A stretch of DNA of 48,893 nt from Desulfovibrionaceae bacterium (lineage in GTDB: Bacteria > Desulfobacterota > Desulfovibrionia > Desulfovibrionales > Desulfovibrionaceae), in contig JAVHLG010000032.1 in NCBI GenBank assembly GCA_031082225.1, forward strand, positions 1 through 48,893, written 5' to 3'. Shown piece after piece: positions 3,295 through 15,695 of this stretch. The stretch's first letter is position 1. Each line of letters starts with the position of its first letter. A model generated the notes under the pieces. That model worked only from the letters and a program-made list of their open reading frames with translations, did not search any database and had not been told where the DNA came from. The position numbers were made by a program, and so were the translations under genes.

Positions 3295-3410
3295 CGCGTC
3301 GCACACTCCTTACAGGTCGTTGTCGTTTCCCATGATGGGTTCGGCGCGATTGGTAGTTGATGAAGCCCCGTTGTGCAAGCCCTATCGAACCCCCGTATCC
3401 GGATCGGTCC

Positions 3411-5378
3411 ATGCCCAAGATTTCCATTTTGTCCCTGGCCAAGGCCTATGGCGGCCGCGACGTGCTGCGCGATTTCTGCCTGGAGATCGACGCCGGAACG
3501 CGCCTGGCCGTGGTGGGCCGCAACGGCGCCGGAAAATCCACCCTGTTGCGGCTTCTGGCCGGACAGGACGAGCCCGACGCCGGGCGCGTGGCCTATCCCC
3601 CCGGGGCCCGGGTGGGATACGTGGCCCAGGAACTGGACGAGACGGATCTGCAGACGCCGCTTCTGTCATTCGTCATGGCCGCCCTGCCTTCCTGGGGATC
3701 GTTTTGGCGGGACTGGGACCAGGCCGCGAAAAACGGCGACGAAAACGCCATAAAAGAGCTGGCCGCGCGCCAGACGAGGCTGGAGCACGAGCTGGGCTAC
3801 AACCCCGAGCACCGGGCCAAGGCCATCCTCTCGGGCCTGGGGTTCGACGACCGGCAGTGGGGCCGCGAGCTTGCGGCCCTAAGCGGCGGCTGGCGGGAGC
3901 GGGCCAAGCTGGCCCGGGTTCTGGCCGCCGGGGCGGACATCCTGCTTTTGGACGAGCCCACCAACCACCTGGACCTGGAGGCCGTGGAATGGCTGGAGAA
4001 CTACCTCCTGGCCTATGAGGGGGTGCTGGTCTTCGTGGCCCACGACCGGGTGTTTTTGGACCGGGTGGCCACCAAGACCCTTTTTCTGGGCGACGCCAAA
4101 CCCGTGGTGCGGCCCGGATCGTTTTCCGACTTTCTGGCCTGGCGTGGGGAACTGGACTCCCGGCTGGGCAAGCAGGCCCAGCACATCGACGACAAGATCA
4201 AGCGCCAGATGGCCAACATCGACCGCTTCCGCTTCAAGTCCTCCAAGGCCCGCCAGGCCCAGAGCAAGCTCAAAAGCGTGACCCGCCTGGAAAAGGAGCT
4301 GGAAGAGCTGCGCGACGCCCGGCCCGAGTCCGGCGGCCCCACCCTGTCCTTCACCCTCCCTGAACCCGAACGCGGGGACAAGACCGTGGTCTCGGCGGCG
4401 GACGTGACCTTCAGCTTCCCCGGCCGGGCCCCCCTGTGGGAGGCGCTCACCTTCCACATCTACAGGGGCCAGAAGATCGCCCTGGCCGGGCCCAACGGCT
4501 CGGGCAAGACCACGCTCTTAAAGCTGGTCACCGGAAACCTGTCCCCCCATTCCGGCCGGGTGCGGGTGGGGTCGGGCGTCAGGATCGGGTATTACAGCCA
4601 GCATCAGACCGAGCTGCTCAACCCGGATCAGACCGTCATTTCCGAAATGAAGCGGATGGCCGGGCCCAAGGCCTCGCACCAGGAGGTCTGCGGCATCCTG
4701 GGGCTTTTCCTCCTGGGCGAGGGCTATTTCGAGCGGCCCGTGGCGCAGCTTAGCGGCGGCGAGAAAAGCCGTCTGCTCCTGGCCGGGCTGTTTGCGGCCC
4801 GGGCCAACTTCCTGGTGCTCGACGAGCCCACCAACCACCTGGACCTGGAAAGCCGCGAGGCCCTGACCCGGGCGCTTATCGACTATTCCGGGACCATTCT
4901 TCTGGTGGCCCACGACCGGCGGCTTCTGGCCGAGGTGGCGGACGAGGTGTGGTCCGTGGGGCACGGCGGCATTACCGTGCACCTGGGCGGCTTCGAGGAA
5001 TACGACCGGATGCTTCGCGAGACGGCCAAGGCGGCCTCCATCCAGGCCCAGGAGGGCAAGACCGGCCGCAAGGACGACAAGGAACGCAGGCGTCGTCTGG
5101 CCGAGGAGCGAAACGCCGTCTACCGGGAGCTCAAACCAAAAAAAGAGGCCTACGCGGCCCTGGAGACCGAGCTTGAGGCGGTGCTTGACGAACAGCACCG
5201 GGTGGAGACCGCCATGGCCGATCCGGCCACCTATGAGGATCGCGGACTGTTTTCGGAACTGTCCAAAAAATATCACGAACTTTCCGAAACGGCGGAAAAT
5301 CTCTTGACCCGCATGGGGAAACTGGAGGAAGAAATTGAGTCTCTCGAAGCCCGCCGGGCCGTCATCGCCGAGCAATAG
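3411..5378 (+). CDS. ABC-F family ATPase (ribosome-associated type)
   Basis: A 655-residue soluble protein with two ABC domains in one chain and no membrane segments. Domain 1 has Walker A GRNGAGKS (residues 36-43), signature LSGGWRE and Walker B ILLLDEPTNHLDLE; domain 2 has GPNGSGKT, LSGGEKSR and LVLDEPTNHLDLE. A charged linker joins them, and a C-terminal region of about 100 residues rich in Lys/Glu is predicted coiled coil, as in Uup/YheS-like members. ABC-F proteins act on the ribosome and relieve stalling; the exact subfamily cannot be assigned here. The start MPKISIL is chosen by alignment to the family; the ribosome site is weak. The Nudix gene follows 9 bp later. Confidence 0.93.
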   Translation: MPKISILSLAKAYGGRDVLRDFCLEIDAGTRLAVVGRNGAGKSTLLRLLAGQDEPDAGRVAYPPGARVGYVAQELDETDLQTPLLSFVMAALPSWGSFWRDWDQAAKNGDENAIKELAARQTRLEHELGYNPEHRAKAILSGLGFDDRQWGRELAALSGGWRERAKLARVLAAGADILLLDEPTNHLDLEAVEWLENYLLAYEGVLVFVAHDRVFLDRVATKTLFLGDAKPVVRPGSFSDFLAWRGELDSRLGKQAQHIDDKIKRQMANIDRFRFKSSKARQAQSKLKSVTRLEKELEELRDARPESGGPTLSFTLPEPERGDKTVVSAADVTFSFPGRAPLWEALTFHIYRGQKIALAGPNGSGKTTLLKLVTGNLSPHSGRVRVGSGVRIGYYSQHQTELLNPDQTVISEMKRMAGPKASHQEVCGILGLFLLGEGYFERPVAQLSGGEKSRLLLAGLFAARANFLVLDEPTNHLDLESREALTRALIDYSGTILLVAHDRRLLAEVADEVWSVGHGGITVHLGGFEEYDRMLRETAKAASIQAQEGKTGRKDDKERRRRLAEERNAVYRELKPKKEAYAALETELEAVLDEQHRVETAMADPATYEDRGLFSELSKKYHELSETAENLLTRMGKLEEEIESLEARRAVIAEQ

Positions 5379-5387
5379 GGCCGTGTC

Positions 5388-5807
5388 GTGAAAAATGCCC
5401 CCCCCGGTCTCGACGTCGTGGCGGCCATCCTGTGGCGCGGGGACCGGTTTTTGGCCGTGCGCCGCCCGCCGGGCAAGCCCATGGCCGGGATGTGGGAATT
5501 TCCCGGGGGCAAGCTTGAGCCGGGCGAGACCCCGGCGGACGCGCTGGTGCGGGAGATTCGCGAGGAGCTCGGGGTGATCCCCCGGTCCCCGGTTTTTTGG
5601 AAGGAAACGACCCACGCCTATCCGGACCTGCTTGTGAGGCTCGTGTTTTTCCATGTTCGGGAGTTCGTCGGCGACCCCGCACCCCTGGAAGGCCAGGAGA
5701 TGGCCTGGCTGACCCCGGTCGAGGCCCTGGCCTATCCCTTTCTTGAGGCCGACACGGATATCGTGCGCCAACTCCCGCGCGACGGTTCGGCGCTCCCCGG
5801 TTCCTGA
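5388..5807 (+). CDS. Nudix hydrolase, MutT-like
   Basis: A 139-residue protein starting at GTG with an AGGG just upstream. The Nudix box is intact: G-x5-E-x7-REIREELG in the segment [20 protein letters not shown] and following residues, preceded by MWEFPGG. The short length and WEFPGGK pattern fit MutT-type (deoxy)nucleoside triphosphate pyrophosphatases that remove oxidised dGTP, but the substrate is not proven. It sits 9 bp after the ABC-F gene. The window also encodes MutY, which acts on the same lesion. Confidence 0.9.
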
Positions 5808-5867
5808 CCGGCACGCCGGTGCAGGTGCGCGCAGCGGTGTCCATGACCCCATGATACAAGGAAGAGT

Positions 5868-6773
5868 ATGAAGATTATTGATCTGATCCAAAACGGAAAG
5901 CCGTTCGTCTCCCTCGAATTCTTCCCCCCCAAGGAAAAAAGCGCCTGGCCGGGTTTTTTCGATGTGGTCAACTGGCTTGCGCCCGTCAAGCCGCTGTTCG
6001 TGTCCGTGACCTATGGGGCCGGGGGCGGCACCCAGGCCAACACCCTGGAGATCGTCTCCCGCATGAAAAAGGAGTACGGCCTGGAGCCCATGGCCCACCT
6101 GACCTGCGTGGGGGCCAGCGAGAAAACCATCCGGGCCTTCCTGGACTCCCTGGTGGACAGCGGCGTGGAGAACGTGCTGGCGCTTCGCGGCGACCCGCCC
6201 CGGGGGCAGGCCGATTTCGTGCCCGACTCGGACCAGTTCCGGCACGCCTCGGATCTGGTGGCGTTTATCCGGGCCGAATATCCCTCGCTGTGCATCGGCG
6301 TGGCCGCCTATCCCGAGGTGCATCCCCAGGCCGAGTCCCCGGAGAAGGATCTGGAATACCTGAAGCGCAAGGTGGACGCAGGCGGCGATTTCATCGTCAC
6401 CCAGCTTTTTTTCGACAACCGCCTGTATTTCGACTTCGTGGCCAGGGCCCGGTCCGCAGGCGTCGCCGTGCCCATGCTGCCCGGCGTCCTGCCGGTCGTC
6501 AGTCTGGCCGGGGCCAAGCGCATGCTGACCTTTTGCGGGGCGTCCATGCCCCCGGACTACCTGCGCTCCCTGGAAGAGGCCGACGCCTCGGGGGACGGCG
6601 CGGCCGTGGCCGAACGGGGTATCGCCTACGCCACGGCCCAGGCCCGGGGACTTTTGGCGGGCGGCGCGCCAGGGGTGCATCTGTATACCTTGAACAAGGC
6701 CGAGGCCTGCCTGAAGATCATCGGCGGACTCGATCTGGAAACGTACCGGTGTTCCCCGCGCTCGCAGGGATGA
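5868..6773 (+). CDS. metF: 5,10-methylenetetrahydrofolate reductase with altered C-terminus
   Basis: Flavoprotein that reduces methylene-THF to methyl-THF for methionine synthesis and C1 metabolism. The 301-residue TIM-barrel protein has the catalytic Glu in SLEFFPPKE near the N-terminus, VTYGAGGGT, ALRGDPPRG and TQLFFDNRLYF. The ATG follows a strong AAGGAAG site. The 3' end is odd: after CLKIIGGLDL the frame continues with ETYRCSPRSQG, and the last residues and the TGA lie in a CRISPR-like repeat at 6749. A second copy of the IIGGLDL coding sequence at 6832-6853, followed at once by TAA, looks like the original gene end. The core enzyme appears intact. Confidence 0.96.
   Translation: MKIIDLIQNGKPFVSLEFFPPKEKSAWPGFFDVVNWLAPVKPLFVSVTYGAGGGTQANTLEIVSRMKKEYGLEPMAHLTCVGASEKTIRAFLDSLVDSGVENVLALRGDPPRGQADFVPDSDQFRHASDLVAFIRAEYPSLCIGVAAYPEVHPQAESPEKDLEYLKRKVDAGGDFIVTQLFFDNRLYFDFVARARSAGVAVPMLPGVLPVVSLAGAKRMLTFCGASMPPDYLRSLEEADASGDGAAVAERGIAYATAQARGLLAGGAPGVHLYTLNKAEACLKIIGGLDLETYRCSPRSQG
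6716..6737 (+). repeat. metF tail, first copy (in-gene)
   Basis: 22 bases, GATCATCGG ... CTCGATCTG, encoding the end of KIIGGLDL. They are identical to 6832-6853, 116 bp downstream. Similarity extends on both sides (GCCTG before, AAACG after, three mismatches in 34 bases). Confidence 0.9.
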
Positions 6774-6820
6774 TCCGGTCAGGCAGGCCATGTGTTCCCC
6801 GCGCTCGCGGGGATGATCCG
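6749..6820 (+). CRISPR. pair of type I-E-like CRISPR repeats with a 14-nt spacer
   Basis: Two 29-nt copies at 6749-6777 and 6792-6820 begin GTGTTCCCCGCGCTCGC and end GGGATGATCCG, differing only at position 18 (A then G). CCCCGC and GCGGGG form the stem expected of a type I-E repeat. Translating across them gives VFPALAGMIR and CVPRARGDDP, which I recall as typical spurious peptides of such arrays. Only 14 bases separate the copies, against about 32 in a working array, and there is no leader or cas gene in the window. It is an orphan or degenerate unit, not a functional array. Confidence 0.6.
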
Positions 6821-6831
6821 CTTTGCCTGTC

Positions 6832-6853
6832 GATCATCGGCGGACTCGATCTG
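6832..6853 (+). repeat. metF tail, second copy (downstream of the CRISPR-like pair)
   Basis: 22 bases identical to the in-gene copy at 6716-6737. Followed directly by TAA (6854-6856), so in the metF frame this copy would end the protein at IIGGLDL. It marks the right border of the inserted segment. Confidence 0.9.
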
Positions 6854-6929
6854 TAAACGGTCAACCGGTTGTCACCACGGCGTCACGCACGTCGTGTTCA
6901 TCGTTAACCCCGTCGTGATGGAGGATGGT

Positions 6930-7952
6930 ATGGGAAGGGGCGATCTGGTCGTGGCCGTGTGCGGCGCCACAGGGGCAGTGGGCAGGGAGATGCTCAGGAC
7001 GCTTGAGCAACGCGATTTTCCGGCGACGACCGTGCGGGCCTTCGCCTCGGCCCGGTCGGCAGGGAGCACCGTGCCCTTCAAAGGCGGCGAACTGGTGGTC
7101 GAGGAACTGACCGAGGACTCTTTTACCGGCATCCATCTGGCCCTTTTTTCCGCCGGCGGCGCGACCTCGAAAAAATTCGCCCCCCACGCGGCCAAGGCCG
7201 GATGCGTGGTGGTGGACAACTCCAGCGCCTGGCGCATGGACCCCGAGGTGCCGCTGGTGGTGCCCGAGGTCAATCCGGACGACGTGGCCTGGCATAAAAA
7301 CATCATCGCCAACCCCAACTGCTCCACCATCCAGATGGTGGTGGTCTTAAAGCCCCTGCACGACGCGGCCAGGATCAAGCGGGTTGTCGTGTCCACGTAT
7401 CAGGCCGTGTCCGGCACCGGGCAAAAGGCCATCACCGAGCTTGAGACCCAGGTGCGCCAGCTTTTCAACATGCAGGAGCCCGAGGCCAAGGTGTATCCGT
7501 ACCAGATCGCCTTCAACTGCCTGCCCCAGATCGATGTCTTCTCCGAGGGCGACTACACCTTCGAGGAGATCAAGATGATCAAGGAGACGGCCAAGATCAT
7601 GGGCGATACGTCCATCAAGGTCACGGCCACCACGGTGCGCGTGCCGGTTTTTTACGGACACAGCGAATCCGTGAACATCGAGACGGAAGAAAAGCTGACG
7701 GCGGCCCAGACCCGGGCCATCCTGGCCCAGGCCCCGGGCGTGCGGGTCTACGACAACCCGTCCGAAAAGCTCTATCCCATGCCCATCATGGCCGCCGGGG
7801 AGGACGAGGTGTTCGTGGGGCGCATCCGCGAGGACGACACCATCGATAACGGCCTCAACCTGTGGATCGTGGCCGACAACATCCGCAAAGGCGCGGCCCT
7901 AAACGCCGTGCAGATCGCCGAACTGCTGCTTGAGCGCGGCATGCTCGGCTGA
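6930..7952 (+). CDS. asd: aspartate-semialdehyde dehydrogenase
   Basis: Makes aspartate semialdehyde from aspartyl phosphate with NADPH, feeding lysine/diaminopimelate, threonine and methionine synthesis. The 340-residue protein has the dinucleotide motif VCGATGAVG, the phosphate-binding SAGG, the nucleophile Cys131 in NPNCSTIQM and a conserved histidine in YGHSESVN. The ATG at 6930 has GGAGG five bases upstream; an in-frame ATG at 6918 lacks this. It follows metF on the same strand after the CRISPR-like insertion, which lengthened the gap and may affect read-through. Confidence 0.97.
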   Translation: MGRGDLVVAVCGATGAVGREMLRTLEQRDFPATTVRAFASARSAGSTVPFKGGELVVEELTEDSFTGIHLALFSAGGATSKKFAPHAAKAGCVVVDNSSAWRMDPEVPLVVPEVNPDDVAWHKNIIANPNCSTIQMVVVLKPLHDAARIKRVVVSTYQAVSGTGQKAITELETQVRQLFNMQEPEAKVYPYQIAFNCLPQIDVFSEGDYTFEEIKMIKETAKIMGDTSIKVTATTVRVPVFYGHSESVNIETEEKLTAAQTRAILAQAPGVRVYDNPSEKLYPMPIMAAGEDEVFVGRIREDDTIDNGLNLWIVADNIRKGAALNAVQIAELLLERGMLG

Positions 7953-8848: not shown

Positions 8849-9772
8849 CTATTCGGCCCGAATCCCGGCTAAAAGCCACATGGCCCCGGGCGTGGCGTCG
8901 TCCCGGACAAAGGTCCAGGTCTCCCGCTCCCGGTCGTCCCCGGACTGGCCCGGCATCCTGGCCAGCACCTCGAAAAGCGTGTCGACCCGGGTGGCGTTTC
9001 CTTCCTTCGCCCGCGCCGCGATCCCGGCCTCGATCAAAAGCAGTTGCGACGTCCTCCCGCCCGTTTGCGCGGCCCGCGCCGTGGCCATCCGGGCCAGCTC
9101 AGCCATGAATTCCGGGGCCACGAACGGGGCCGTCCCGGACACGTCGCCCTTCTCCAGGGCCTCACGGACCCGGGCGTAGACCGCCTTGGCCCCGGCCACA
9201 AACTCCTCGTCCTCGCTGTGGAAGGCCGGTTGCGCTCCGGCCGGGGCCGGTTTTTGTGCCGACGGCGTGGAACGCAGGCCGCCCCAGGCCGCCTCGGCCG
9301 CCTGATAGGCGCGCTCCAGGCCCGGTTCCCGGCTGCCCGGGGCAGGGCCCTGGGAGGTTCCCGGACCGTAGCCCTGCGTTGGAGGGGCCGACGGCTGCGG
9401 GTTGGACGAGGCGGGATCAGCGCCTTTGGACGAAGGACCGGAGGGCGTCCGCCCCTCGGCGGGAGGCGGCGCGGGCCGCGCGGCCTTGTCCGGCCCTGTG
9501 GACGGCGCGCGTCTGCCTGCCAGAAAACGGAACAGCATAAAGACCACAAGCCCGATGACCACGATGTCGGCCAGGCGGGGGCCGGTGAAGGGTTCTCCGA
9601 GAAACAGGGCGTTGATGAGCCCGCCGGCGAACATTCCCGGGGCCTCTTCCGGGGGCAGGCCGTCTGTGCCCTGTCTGGAGGCCTGGGCCATGGCGGGCAG
9701 GGCCAGGAGATGACACAGGGTCACGGCCAGGGGGCGGAGGCGGACGCGGGGGCCGGGCGCGGCGTGGGGCAT
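8849..9772 (-). CDS. Tim44-like domain membrane protein
   Basis: A 307-residue protein. The N-terminus has a hydrophobic stretch ending LPAMAQA that could be a signal peptide, followed by a second membrane segment (LADIVVIGLVVFMLFRFLAGRR, about residues 67-88). A Pro/Ala/Ser-rich linker follows, and residues about 195-307 resemble the Tim44-like domain found in bacterial inner-membrane proteins (FVAGAKAVYARVREALEKGD ... FVAPEF ... IEAGIAARAKEGNATRVDTLFEVLA ... ETWTFVRD). Function in bacteria is poorly defined. AAAGGAT precedes the ATG, and a good sigma70 promoter lies 27-54 bases upstream of it. Confidence 0.8.
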   Translation of the reverse strand: MPHAAPGPRVRLRPLAVTLCHLLALPAMAQASRQGTDGLPPEEAPGMFAGGLINALFLGEPFTGPRLADIVVIGLVVFMLFRFLAGRRAPSTGPDKAARPAPPPAEGRTPSGPSSKGADPASSNPQPSAPPTQGYGPGTSQGPAPGSREPGLERAYQAAEAAWGGLRSTPSAQKPAPAGAQPAFHSEDEEFVAGAKAVYARVREALEKGDVSGTAPFVAPEFMAELARMATARAAQTGGRTSQLLLIEAGIAARAKEGNATRVDTLFEVLARMPGQSGDDRERETWTFVRDDATPGAMWLLAGIRAE

Positions 9773-12720: not shown

Positions 12721-14217
12721 ATGTTCATCCATAAAGGCTCGCCCGATTCCCCCCGTTCCCGGTTTTTGAGCCTGCGGTCCCAGTTGGTCCTGGCCCTGGG
12801 GGCGCTTTTGGCCATAAGCCTCGGGGGCGCGGTCCTGTCCCTGTGGTACGGGCACATGGCCCGCAATCTGTATCTCTCCACCCTTGAGGGCGACGTGGTC
12901 GGCCTGGCTGCGGCCCAGGAACTGGAAAACGCCCTGTTGGCCCTGTATGCCGAGGCGGCCGGGGGCCGGGGGGCCATGGACGCCGCCGAGGGGCTTGCGG
13001 TCGGACGGCGGCGGGTGGAGGAGTGGCTGCGCAAGGCCCGCGACGCGGCAGGCGGCGAGGCGGCCCGGCAGGCCCTGTCCCATCTGGACGCATCGTGGTT
13101 CGAGGTCCAGGAGGCCATGGACACGGCCTTTGACCGGTCGTCGTCCCCCGAAGCCGGGCTTACGCTTTTGTCCCGGCGTTTCCACGAGGCGTTTTCCCGG
13201 GCCGAGGCCTATAAGAATCTCTTTCGGGAGGGCATTGCGGCCCGCCGGGCCGATTATCAGGCGCGCACCGACGCCCTGGTGGTCATGGTCTGGATCGCCC
13301 TGCCCCTTATCGCCCTTCTGGGGCTGGCCCTGACGCATCTGGCGTTTCGGCGCATCCTCAATCCCATCCGCCATCTGGCCCGCACCGGACCCGGGGCGGA
13401 AAAAGAGTTGTGCGACGGCAACGAGGTCAAGACCCTGGCCCGGCGCTTCGGCAACCTTCTTGTGGCCGTGGACCGGGCCCAGTCCGACCTGGAGGTCAGC
13501 CGGGACCACCTCATGCAGTCGGAAAAGCTGGCCCTGGTGGGCAAGCTGGCCGCCGGGGTGGCCCACACCATCCGCAACCCCCTGACATCGGTCAAGATGC
13601 GGCTTTTTTCCCTGGAGCGCGTCCTGCGCCTGGAACCGGCCCAGAGGGAGGACTTCGAGGTCATTTCGGAAGAGATCCGGCACATCGACACCATCGTGCG
13701 CAATTTTCTGGAATTTTCCCGGCCGCCCAAGCTGGTGGCCCGGGCCACCAGCCTGTCCGACGTGGTGGACACCACCTTAAACCTCCTCAAGCACCGCCTG
13801 GAGTCCTACGGGGTGACGGTGGAGGTCCTGCGGGTCAAGCGCCTGACCCCCATCAGCGCCGACCCCGATCAGCTCAAGGAGGCCCTGGTCAACCTGGTGC
13901 TCAATGCCTGCGAGGCCATGGTCGAGGGCGGCCGCATCGTCATCCGCGAGGAGGAGGGGGTCATGGAGCCGGCCGGACGGGTGGTGGTGGTGCGCATCAG
14001 CGACACCGGCCCGGGGGTTCCCGAAATGATCCGCGACCGGGTGTTTCAGCCCTTTTTCACCACCAAGGGCGAGGGCTCGGGGCTTGGGCTGCCCATCGCC
14101 CAGCGCATCGTGGAGGAGCACGGCGGCTGGATCAACCTGCATTCCCCCGAGGGCCGGGGGGCCACCTTCGCCCTGATCTTTCCCCACGCCGAGGAGCGCA
14201 CGTGGCACAGATACTGA
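12721..14217 (+). CDS. membrane histidine kinase, partner of the sigma54 activator
   Basis: 498 residues: membrane segment about 22-43, periplasmic four-helix-like sensor about 44-184, second membrane segment about 185-207, a linker, HisKA with His282, then HATPase (NLVLNACEAM, DTGPGVPE, GSGLGLPI). The residue after the phospho-histidine is Thr (AHTIRNPL) instead of the usual Glu or Asp. The 3' end overlaps the regulator gene by 16 bases, so the two are translationally linked and very probably a cognate pair. A GAGG lies close to the ATG; an AAGGA lies farther upstream. Confidence 0.93.
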   Translation: MFIHKGSPDSPRSRFLSLRSQLVLALGALLAISLGGAVLSLWYGHMARNLYLSTLEGDVVGLAAAQELENALLALYAEAAGGRGAMDAAEGLAVGRRRVEEWLRKARDAAGGEAARQALSHLDASWFEVQEAMDTAFDRSSSPEAGLTLLSRRFHEAFSRAEAYKNLFREGIAARRADYQARTDALVVMVWIALPLIALLGLALTHLAFRRILNPIRHLARTGPGAEKELCDGNEVKTLARRFGNLLVAVDRAQSDLEVSRDHLMQSEKLALVGKLAAGVAHTIRNPLTSVKMRLFSLERVLRLEPAQREDFEVISEEIRHIDTIVRNFLEFSRPPKLVARATSLSDVVDTTLNLLKHRLESYGVTVEVLRVKRLTPISADPDQLKEALVNLVLNACEAMVEGGRIVIREEEGVMEPAGRVVVVRISDTGPGVPEMIRDRVFQPFFTTKGEGSGLGLPIAQRIVEEHGGWINLHSPEGRGATFALIFPHAEERTWHRY

Positions 14218-15695
14218 TCGTGGACGACGACCACCAGTTGCGCCAGAGTTTCGAGCGCCTGCTTTCCGCCGAAGGCTATGCCGTGCGCACGGCCTCGACC
14301 GGCGAGGCCGGGGTGGAGATGGTCCGCGAGAGCCTGCCGGATCTGGTGGTCATGGACGTGCGCATGCCGGGCATAAGCGGCCTGGAGGCCTATGCGGCCA
14401 TGCGCGAGATCGAACCCAGGCTGCCGGTGATCATCATGACCGCCCACGGCACCACGGAGACCGCCATTGAGGCCACCCGCATGGGGGCCTTCGACTACGT
14501 GCTCAAGCCCTTCGACATCCCCGACATCTTGAAGCTCATCGAAAAGGGCTTGAGCGCCGGGCGGTTCATGCGCTCCAAGGTGGAGATGGACGCCCCGGCC
14601 GAGGGCGGCGAGGGCGAGGCCATCGTGGGCGGCGGCCCGGCCATGCAGGAGATCTACAAGGCCATCGGCCGCGCCGCGCCCACGGACGCCACGGTGCTCA
14701 TCCGGGGCGAATCCGGTACGGGCAAGGAGCTCGTGGCCCGGGCCGTCTACCAATACAGCGCCCGGGCCGGAAAGCCCTTTCTGGTCATCAACTGCGTGGC
14801 CATTCCGGAGACGCTTCTGGAATCGGAACTCTTCGGCTACGAGCGCGGGGCCTTCACCGGGGCCTCGGGCCGCAAGGTGGGCAAGATCGAACAGGCCAAC
14901 CGGGGCACGGTGTTCCTCGACGAGATCGGGGACATGCCGGTCTCCATCCAGGCCAAGCTTTTGCGGCTGTTGCAGGAAAAACACGTGGAGCGCCTGGGCG
15001 GGGCCGGGCCCATCCCGGTGGACGTGCGCATCATCGCCGCCACCAACCGGGATCTGGAACAGGCCGTGGCCAAGGGGGCCTTTCGCGAGGACCTGTATTA
15101 CCGCCTCAAGGTGGTGACCATGAGCCTGCCCCCCCTGCGGGAGCGGCGCGAGGACATCCCGCTTCTGGCCAGACATTTTCTGTGCCGCTTTTCCCGGGAG
15201 GCCGGTGCCCCGGACCCGGGGCTGACCCCGCAGGCCATGGCCTTTCTCACCGGGCACGACTGGCCGGGAAACGTGCGCGAGCTGGCCAACGTCCTGCAAA
15301 AGACCCTGATTTTCAGCCGGGGCGGTCCCATTGCCGCCGAGGATCTGCAAAAGGCCGCCGGAACAACGCCGTCGGCCGCCATGGCCGGGCCGACGGGGAC
15401 CGCCGGGGCCGGAGGCGATGGGACCGCCCTGGAGTTCCTGCGCCGGTTCGTGCGCCAGGAACTGGTGGCGGCCCGGGACGACGAGGGGGCCTTCGAGTCG
15501 CTCATGGACCGCTTCGGGGCGGTGGTCATCGCCGAGGCCCTGGCCATGACCGGCGGCAACCGCACCCGGGCGGCCAGGCTTCTGGGGCTGTCGCGGCCCA
15601 CGCTTTTAGCCCGCATCGAAAAGTACGGACTCAAGATCGAGACCTCGGTGACCGCACCGTTCGGGGCGGCCGAATCGGGCGGCCCAGGGCGCTGA
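14202..15695 (+). CDS. NtrC-family sigma54-dependent response regulator
   Basis: 497 residues starting at GTG with GAGGAG five bases upstream. Receiver domain 1-115 has the DDD acidic cluster at 8-10, Asp52 in VVMDVRMPG and the Lys-Pro in YVLKPFD. The AAA+ domain (about 140-370) has Walker A GESGTGKE, the sigma54-contact loop GAFTGA, Walker B FLDEIGDMP and the arginine-finger region. A Fis-type helix-turn-helix ends the protein (GNRTRAARLLGLSRPTLLARIEKYGL). It activates sigma54 promoters; I found no convincing -24/-12 promoter in the window. Overlaps the kinase gene. Confidence 0.96.
   Translation: MAQILIVDDDHQLRQSFERLLSAEGYAVRTASTGEAGVEMVRESLPDLVVMDVRMPGISGLEAYAAMREIEPRLPVIIMTAHGTTETAIEATRMGAFDYVLKPFDIPDILKLIEKGLSAGRFMRSKVEMDAPAEGGEGEAIVGGGPAMQEIYKAIGRAAPTDATVLIRGESGTGKELVARAVYQYSARAGKPFLVINCVAIPETLLESELFGYERGAFTGASGRKVGKIEQANRGTVFLDEIGDMPVSIQAKLLRLLQEKHVERLGGAGPIPVDVRIIAATNRDLEQAVAKGAFREDLYYRLKVVTMSLPPLRERREDIPLLARHFLCRFSREAGAPDPGLTPQAMAFLTGHDWPGNVRELANVLQKTLIFSRGGPIAAEDLQKAAGTTPSAAMAGPTGTAGAGGDGTALEFLRRFVRQELVAARDDEGAFESLMDRFGAVVIAEALAMTGGNRTRAARLLGLSRPTLLARIEKYGLKIETSVTAPFGAAESGGPGR

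Follow-up and report, generated by a model that had tools for sequence, protein, structure and literature searches.

A pair of type I-E CRISPR repeats lies between metF and asd in the window (the whole stretch of DNA analysed, 48,893 nt), and the 3' end of metF is duplicated on either side of the pair. We tentatively interpret this arrangement, with a confidence slightly short of even, as the result of a single aberrant insertion of array-type repeats at the metF 3' end with target duplication, related to adaptation, to repair or to both. Regulatory guides and RNA anti-CRISPRs (Racr) derive from ectopic repeats, and a nearly intact case could show how repeats leave arrays. The flanking duplication and the recognisable empty site in relatives make this pair informative on mechanism.

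Two type I-E repeats lie within a duplication of the metF end

Both repeats are 29 nt long and are separated by a gap of 14 nt. They lie on the strand of metF and asd, that is, in the sense direction. The order along the locus is metF, first copy of the metF end (D1), 5 nt, first repeat (R1), 14 nt, second repeat (R2), 11 nt, second copy of the metF end (D2) and asd, with the following features:

5868-6773, + strand: metF (TIGR00676), with a frame running via D1 and 5 filler nt into R1 and ending at TGA 6771-6773
6714-6716, + strand: AAG, like the E. coli I-E PAM, read directly from the sequence
6716-6743, + strand: D1, 28-nt core of the first copy of the metF end, 27/28 identical to D2
6744-6748, + strand: filler TACCG, 5 nt
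6749-6777, + strand: R1, one mismatch, which breaks one stem pair
6770-6812, + strand: predicted RNA of 43 nt (8-nt handle, 14-nt guide, 21-nt hairpin), if Cas6e cuts after base 21 of both repeats
6778-6791, + strand: gap, 14 nt, with an 11-nt stretch of metF in inverted orientation (motif common in the genome)
6792-6820, + strand: R2, identical to the array repeat
6821-6831, + strand: filler CTTTGCCTGTC, 11 nt, with TGCCTG in common with the sequence before D1
6832-6859, + strand: D2, 28-nt core of the second copy, with TAA in register
6930-7952, + strand: asd (TIGR01296), the downstream gene

The original prediction, made from the letters of the window, had described the pair with its coordinates, 29-nt length, single mismatch and 14-nt spacing, all of which proved exact. 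Its placement of the pair in a metF-asd setting agrees with profile searches, in which both genes score above the TIGR cut-offs, and its statement that no further repeat is present holds for the window, where we found no third copy at up to three mismatches. At this threshold the repeat pattern has two occurrences in the window, compared with none in 100 shuffles. Absent from that description were the entry of the metF frame into R1, where it terminates at an internal TGA, the stem pair of R1 broken by its A and the flanking duplication.

The mismatch of R1 to the array repeat is a G to A change within the stem. R2 folded alone forms a normal, intact hairpin, and when both repeats are folded jointly (79 nt) the best structure pairs R1 with R2, with 8 of 200 shuffles folding equally well. 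Both repeats are whole, and neither is attached to a spacer of the genome's own arrays. No promoter-like or terminator-like sites were found within 6600-7000.

The core of the duplication, GATCATCGGCGGACTCGATCTGKAAACG, is identical at 27 of 28 positions between D1 and D2, and these are its only places in the genome at up to three mismatches. By comparison, random segment pairs of the window reached at most 22/28 identity in 400 trials. With mismatches allowed, the duplication measures 36 nt (33/36 identical), and the similarity passes the 28-nt core: the TGCCTG in the 11-nt filler is in register with the sequence before D1, as found for a fraction of 0.0022 of 20,000 random 11-mers. The two copies are 88 nt apart (6744-6831), and D2 has an in-register TAA where D1 reads GAA. 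The same duplication test, run on nine other cases (the cas-locus pair described below, two mini-arrays of the same-genus genome G002 and their combination, four genome pairs, two of them doubtful as pairs, and one viral pair), gave 6-9 nt only; a flanking duplication is thus absent around the other ectopic pairs tested. D1 also has a weak likeness to the repeat (15/28, equalled by about 0.03-0.045 of random 28-mers), and on account of this weakness we rejected the idea of a hot spot based on repeat-like sequence at the metF end. The distance between the G of the AAG and the start of R1 is 33 nt, a coincidence of about 1 in 64 by chance that was noticed post hoc.

In G001 and G002, two genomes of the same genus, metF and asd are joined and the insert is absent; the pair is therefore present in one of three genomes of the genus, its own included. 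An asd-like motif follows metF in 21 of 30 metF loci (a set that includes the present locus and one locus that could not be parsed), within 432 nt in 20 of these 21. The locus matched 35 of the 199 family genomes searched, and among the matches listed the only junction-spanning one is that of its own genome, the others covering the repeats or the metF end. Each junction string occurs once in the genome.

The pair has the repeat of the resident type I-E arrays

The assignment to type I-E in the original prediction is borne out by the genome itself, in which the repeat matches resident I-E arrays and the cas locus is complete. This locus (cas3, cse1, cse2, cas7, cas5, cas6e, cas1e and cas2) is found on C99, a contig other than that of the window. 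A search of the genome and its relatives and a comparison with the main array, both proposed in that prediction, were equally favourable: at up to three mismatches the genome has 38 copies of the repeat, R2 being identical to the array repeat and R1 differing by one change, and 207 copies were found in G002, together with a Cse1 that is 41% identical. G001 gave no match for the repeat or for Cse1. The array repeats have a period of 61 nt (25 on C99 and 10 on C126), and all 33 own spacers that were read are 32 nt long. The array contigs end inside the array, which is broken between C99 and C126 in this draft genome of 150 contigs.

Because a complete I-E cas locus is accompanied by 35 repeats of the same sequence in arrays of 61-nt period, we consider the pair to be array-type repeat DNA. 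With matching arrays and a cas locus in the host, the repeats are genuine, and the resident Cas6e could plausibly use them. The findings that the original prediction had named as speaking against it, namely the lack of any such array or the membership of the copies in an ordinary palindrome family, were not made. A dispersed REP-like palindrome family was rejected, since 35 of the 38 copies are in arrays, one lies between cas3 and cse1 and the other two form this pair.

The lone copy at the cas locus (C99:8076) belongs to a separate element. On the minus strand of G000:C99 (locus L009), the repeat at 8104-8076 is followed by 28 nt resembling a guide, and a second, degenerate hairpin repeat is also present. 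This guide matches a site at about 8012, 63 nt further on, at 19 of 24 positions (mismatches at 6, 9, 12, 21 and 24; 0 of 401 shuffles as good); this site is next to AAG and upstream of cse1 (start 7622). CreR is the name of the cas-regulating kind of ectopic-repeat guide, and judged by its sequence the element looks like a CreR-type self-repressor of the I-E cas operon. G002 has a degenerate hairpin repeat pair around a guide upstream of its cse1 (L079, G002:C1:3383500-3401500, about 3370-3460). This guide matches a site upstream of cse1 at 16/24 positions, next to GAG (mismatches at 6, 12, 16-18 and 21-23), a match statistically weaker than that of L009, with 17 of 500 shuffles equalling it.

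Possible origin of the pair

In E. coli, type I-E arrays have 29-bp repeats and take up protospacers of 33 bp, and the AAG PAM supplies the final base of the new repeat (PMC10011333). We infer from this that the duplicated part should amount to 28 bp. The 28-nt core is of the size expected for I-E integration, and the similarity continues to 36 nt. In the reading that we tentatively prefer, ectopic DNA of the host I-E array-repeat kind would have been inserted once, in this lineage, at the metF 3' end, and 28-36 bp of the metF end would have been duplicated during the event. The 28-nt core, the exact borders of the repeats and the AAG one protospacer length from R1 suggest that Cas1-Cas2 made the breaks; repair would have added the extra sequence.

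Off-target integration had been among the suggestions of the original prediction. The 28-nt duplication and the empty site in G001 and G002 favour it, and the spacing of the copies does not: about 33 bp would be expected between them, and since they are 88 nt apart, one 33-nt integration does not fit. The similarity beyond the core (TGCCTG) further means that the length of the core may not mark a cut, and the entry of two whole repeats by integration is not explained by the insertion reading. A more specific version, in which the pair is a relic of a Cas1-Cas2 mishap that put complete array repeats and a repeat-sized target duplication into a housekeeping operon, and with it a birth route for chromosomal ectopic repeats, appears to us somewhat unlikely. 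If it were true, ectopic repeats born in this way would be the material from which CreA, CreR or Racr elements arise, and a metabolic mRNA would here have been placed within reach of Cas6e.

The pair may instead be what remains of a mini-array carried by a phage or another element; in that case the metF duplication would be an attachment-site pair or the scar of a crossover, and the other parts of the element would have been lost along with most of the spacer. We regard this as unlikely. Mini-arrays built from two copies of the same repeat are known from G002, where two of them lie close to a gene for a phage-type integrase, and from a viral contig that has one and also carries a Mu-type transposase, and they lend a precedent to the degraded mini-array of the original prediction; another viral contig has two I-E repeats only 7 nt apart. 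The known same-repeat mini-arrays, however, have spacers of 31-32 nt, and those of G002 are without a flanking duplication. Moreover, no viral contig contains the junction strings or the metF core, phage records gave no match to the locus, seven plasmid records match it weakly and mostly over the repeats, and the 88-nt insert is free of integrase genes and other genes of an element.

Recombination between metF and the array through a metF-derived spacer would make D1 plus TACCG that 32-nt spacer, with AAG before it and the repeats carried over. The interval from AAG to R1 is indeed 32 nt, exactly the length of the 33 own spacers read, but none of these 33, which come from an array interrupted between C99 and C126, carries the metF end; the final 5 nt mismatch the metF downstream sequence and the 14-nt gap is left unexplained. 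We consider this route improbable. An assembly artefact could be suspected in a draft genome of 150 contigs whose array contigs end within the array. We consider it extremely improbable, as the junction strings occur once each, the repeat is just 29 nt long, no array spacer is attached and a chimera gives no reason to expect a flanking duplication.

The gap between the repeats was compared with several possible sources. It contains 11 nt of inverted metF sequence, and 23 of 9,906 random 14-mers match equally well. A 13-mer of this motif is found at 103 genome places at up to one mismatch, the pair included (7 for the reversed control), and this commonness weakens the inverted match as a sign of local template switching. 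The gap also agrees with the end of one own spacer at 11 of 14 positions, which random sequences equal in 4 of 300 cases in register and in 53 of 300 in any register, and it has no match beyond chance among 109 spacers of G002 (107 from the fetched part of the G002 array and the two mini-array spacers). The gap may be the remnant of a shortened spacer; the own-spacer match would favour a degraded piece of array.

Possible function of the pair

In E. coli, Cas6e cuts after base 21 of the repeat. The repeats would be transcribed together with metF in the presumed metF-asd transcript, where Cas6e could cut R2 and, less well, R1. Cas6e cutting of the metF-asd mRNA is a reasonable prediction, although it is weakened by the broken stem pair of R1 and by the joint fold that the folding model predicts for R1 and R2; it would appear as a Cas6e-dependent cut between the two genes.

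For the 14-nt guide, no AAG-flanked site at up to one mismatch was found in the genome. At two mismatches there are 34 places, one of them the pair itself (3 for the reversed control). With positions 6 and 12 free there are 11 places, the pair included, and none of the 11 has AAG; an ATG-flanked one and a GAG-flanked one fall in open frames of 361 and 309 codons, respectively. The best match within the window (13/14 at 5700-5713) is preceded by GGG. As none of these sites is convincing, we rejected the pair as a guide for another genomic target.

A functional element, kept either as a site at which Cas6e processes the metF-asd mRNA or as a short guide for repression by Cascade, is accordingly something to which we give little probability. 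In its favour are the sense orientation of the repeats, the intact hairpin of R2 and the other ectopic pair of the same genome, which seems to be used as a guide at the cas operon. In addition, passages of PMC10989794 describe short guides that repress without cutting in a type I-B system, a precedent for such a mode. Against it stand the guide searches at up to one mismatch and with free positions, the broken stem pair of R1, the best joint fold, which joins R1 with R2, and the presence of the pair in only one of the three genomes. The regulatory reading of the original prediction thus found no support for this pair, whose guide appears from sequence matching to be without a convincing target. 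With an RNA of 43 nt at most and such a guide, the insertion is probably a tolerated passenger, and the pair probably has no function, or none beyond the cutting of mRNA by Cas6e.

Relation to known ectopic repeats

Off-target ('neo-CRISPR') spacer integration by Cas1-Cas2 was reportedly described by Nivala, Shipman and Church in 2018. The present locus resembles it in having an insertion outside the array, in a genome with a matching I-E system, and a 28-nt duplication core. It differs in that the copies are 88 nt apart instead of about 33 and that the insert holds two whole array repeats. With a type I-E array the pair shares the repeat sequence and the hairpin, with one stem pair broken in R1, but array spacers are about 32 nt long (33/33 in this genome), compared with 14 nt here. 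We conclude that the pair is not an array, because of the 14-nt gap and because it has no leader beside it, its flanks being metF and asd in place of a leader and cas1-cas2.

Nor is the pair a demonstrated CreA or CreR, because it has no target. In the passages available of PMC8501985 and PMC9458426 on CreA ectopic-repeat guides, two ectopic repeats likewise surround a short guide-like stretch without a leader. Those repeats are degenerated, whereas the present ones are nearly perfect (0 and 1 change), and the pair is not beside a cas or toxin gene. A regulatory guide of the CreA/CreR type would match a promoter next to a PAM; for the guide of the pair, no AAG-adjacent target was found at up to one mismatch. 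The Racr elements and solitary repeat units described in passages of PMC10651486 are similarly repeat mimics outside an array that Cas6 could bind. Racr elements are encoded by viruses, plasmids or prophages; here, in contrast, two repeats lie in a chromosomal operon, between metF and asd, where nothing points to a mobile element, and their junctions were seen in none of the viral contigs. The pair is therefore not a Racr, no viral context having been found. Virus-borne mini-CRISPR arrays (PMC6858448) also have two repeats of the host type, but the window pair is without a full-length spacer and without viral context. The listings and passages of the open-licence literature that were searched do not describe a comparable pair within a metabolic operon.

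Similar repeat pairs in other genomes

A species-genome collection (84,980 genomes by its description) was scanned for two repeats 3 to 26 nt apart, with both repeat edges fixed, so that degenerate pairs are missed. This gave 14 stretches, of which 7 are in arrays (3 with N in the gap); among the 7 others, only the one in L054 has both copies passing three mismatches. In viral contigs the same scan gave two stretches, including one true pair. This pair (L065, IMGVR_UViG_3300035130_000021, 1271-1335) has two I-E repeats 7 nt apart directly after an IS605 OrfB/TnpB-type gene (38-1231) and is the nearest look-alike of the pair in the window.

The G002 mini-arrays (L066, G002:C1:938000-954000) are two-repeat units at 7239-7327 and 7650-7739, with spacers of 31 and 32 nt. 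Both have the same orientation, some 350 nt separate them, and a gene for a phage-type integrase (5615-6877) lies nearby. On the minus strand of the viral contig L080 (IMGVR_UViG_3300048579_000273), copies of the same repeat at 9550-9578 and 9611-9639 enclose a 32-nt spacer; this contig also encodes a Mu-type transposase and a Cas1-family protein (PF01867, 1.2e-21; gene noted at 13401-14417). Finally, repeat pairs with 21-nt gaps occur outside regular arrays in Bordetella ansorpii (L050, about 5973) and, on the reverse strand, in Pluralibacter gergoviae (L054, about 2784), and these may be CreR-like guides.
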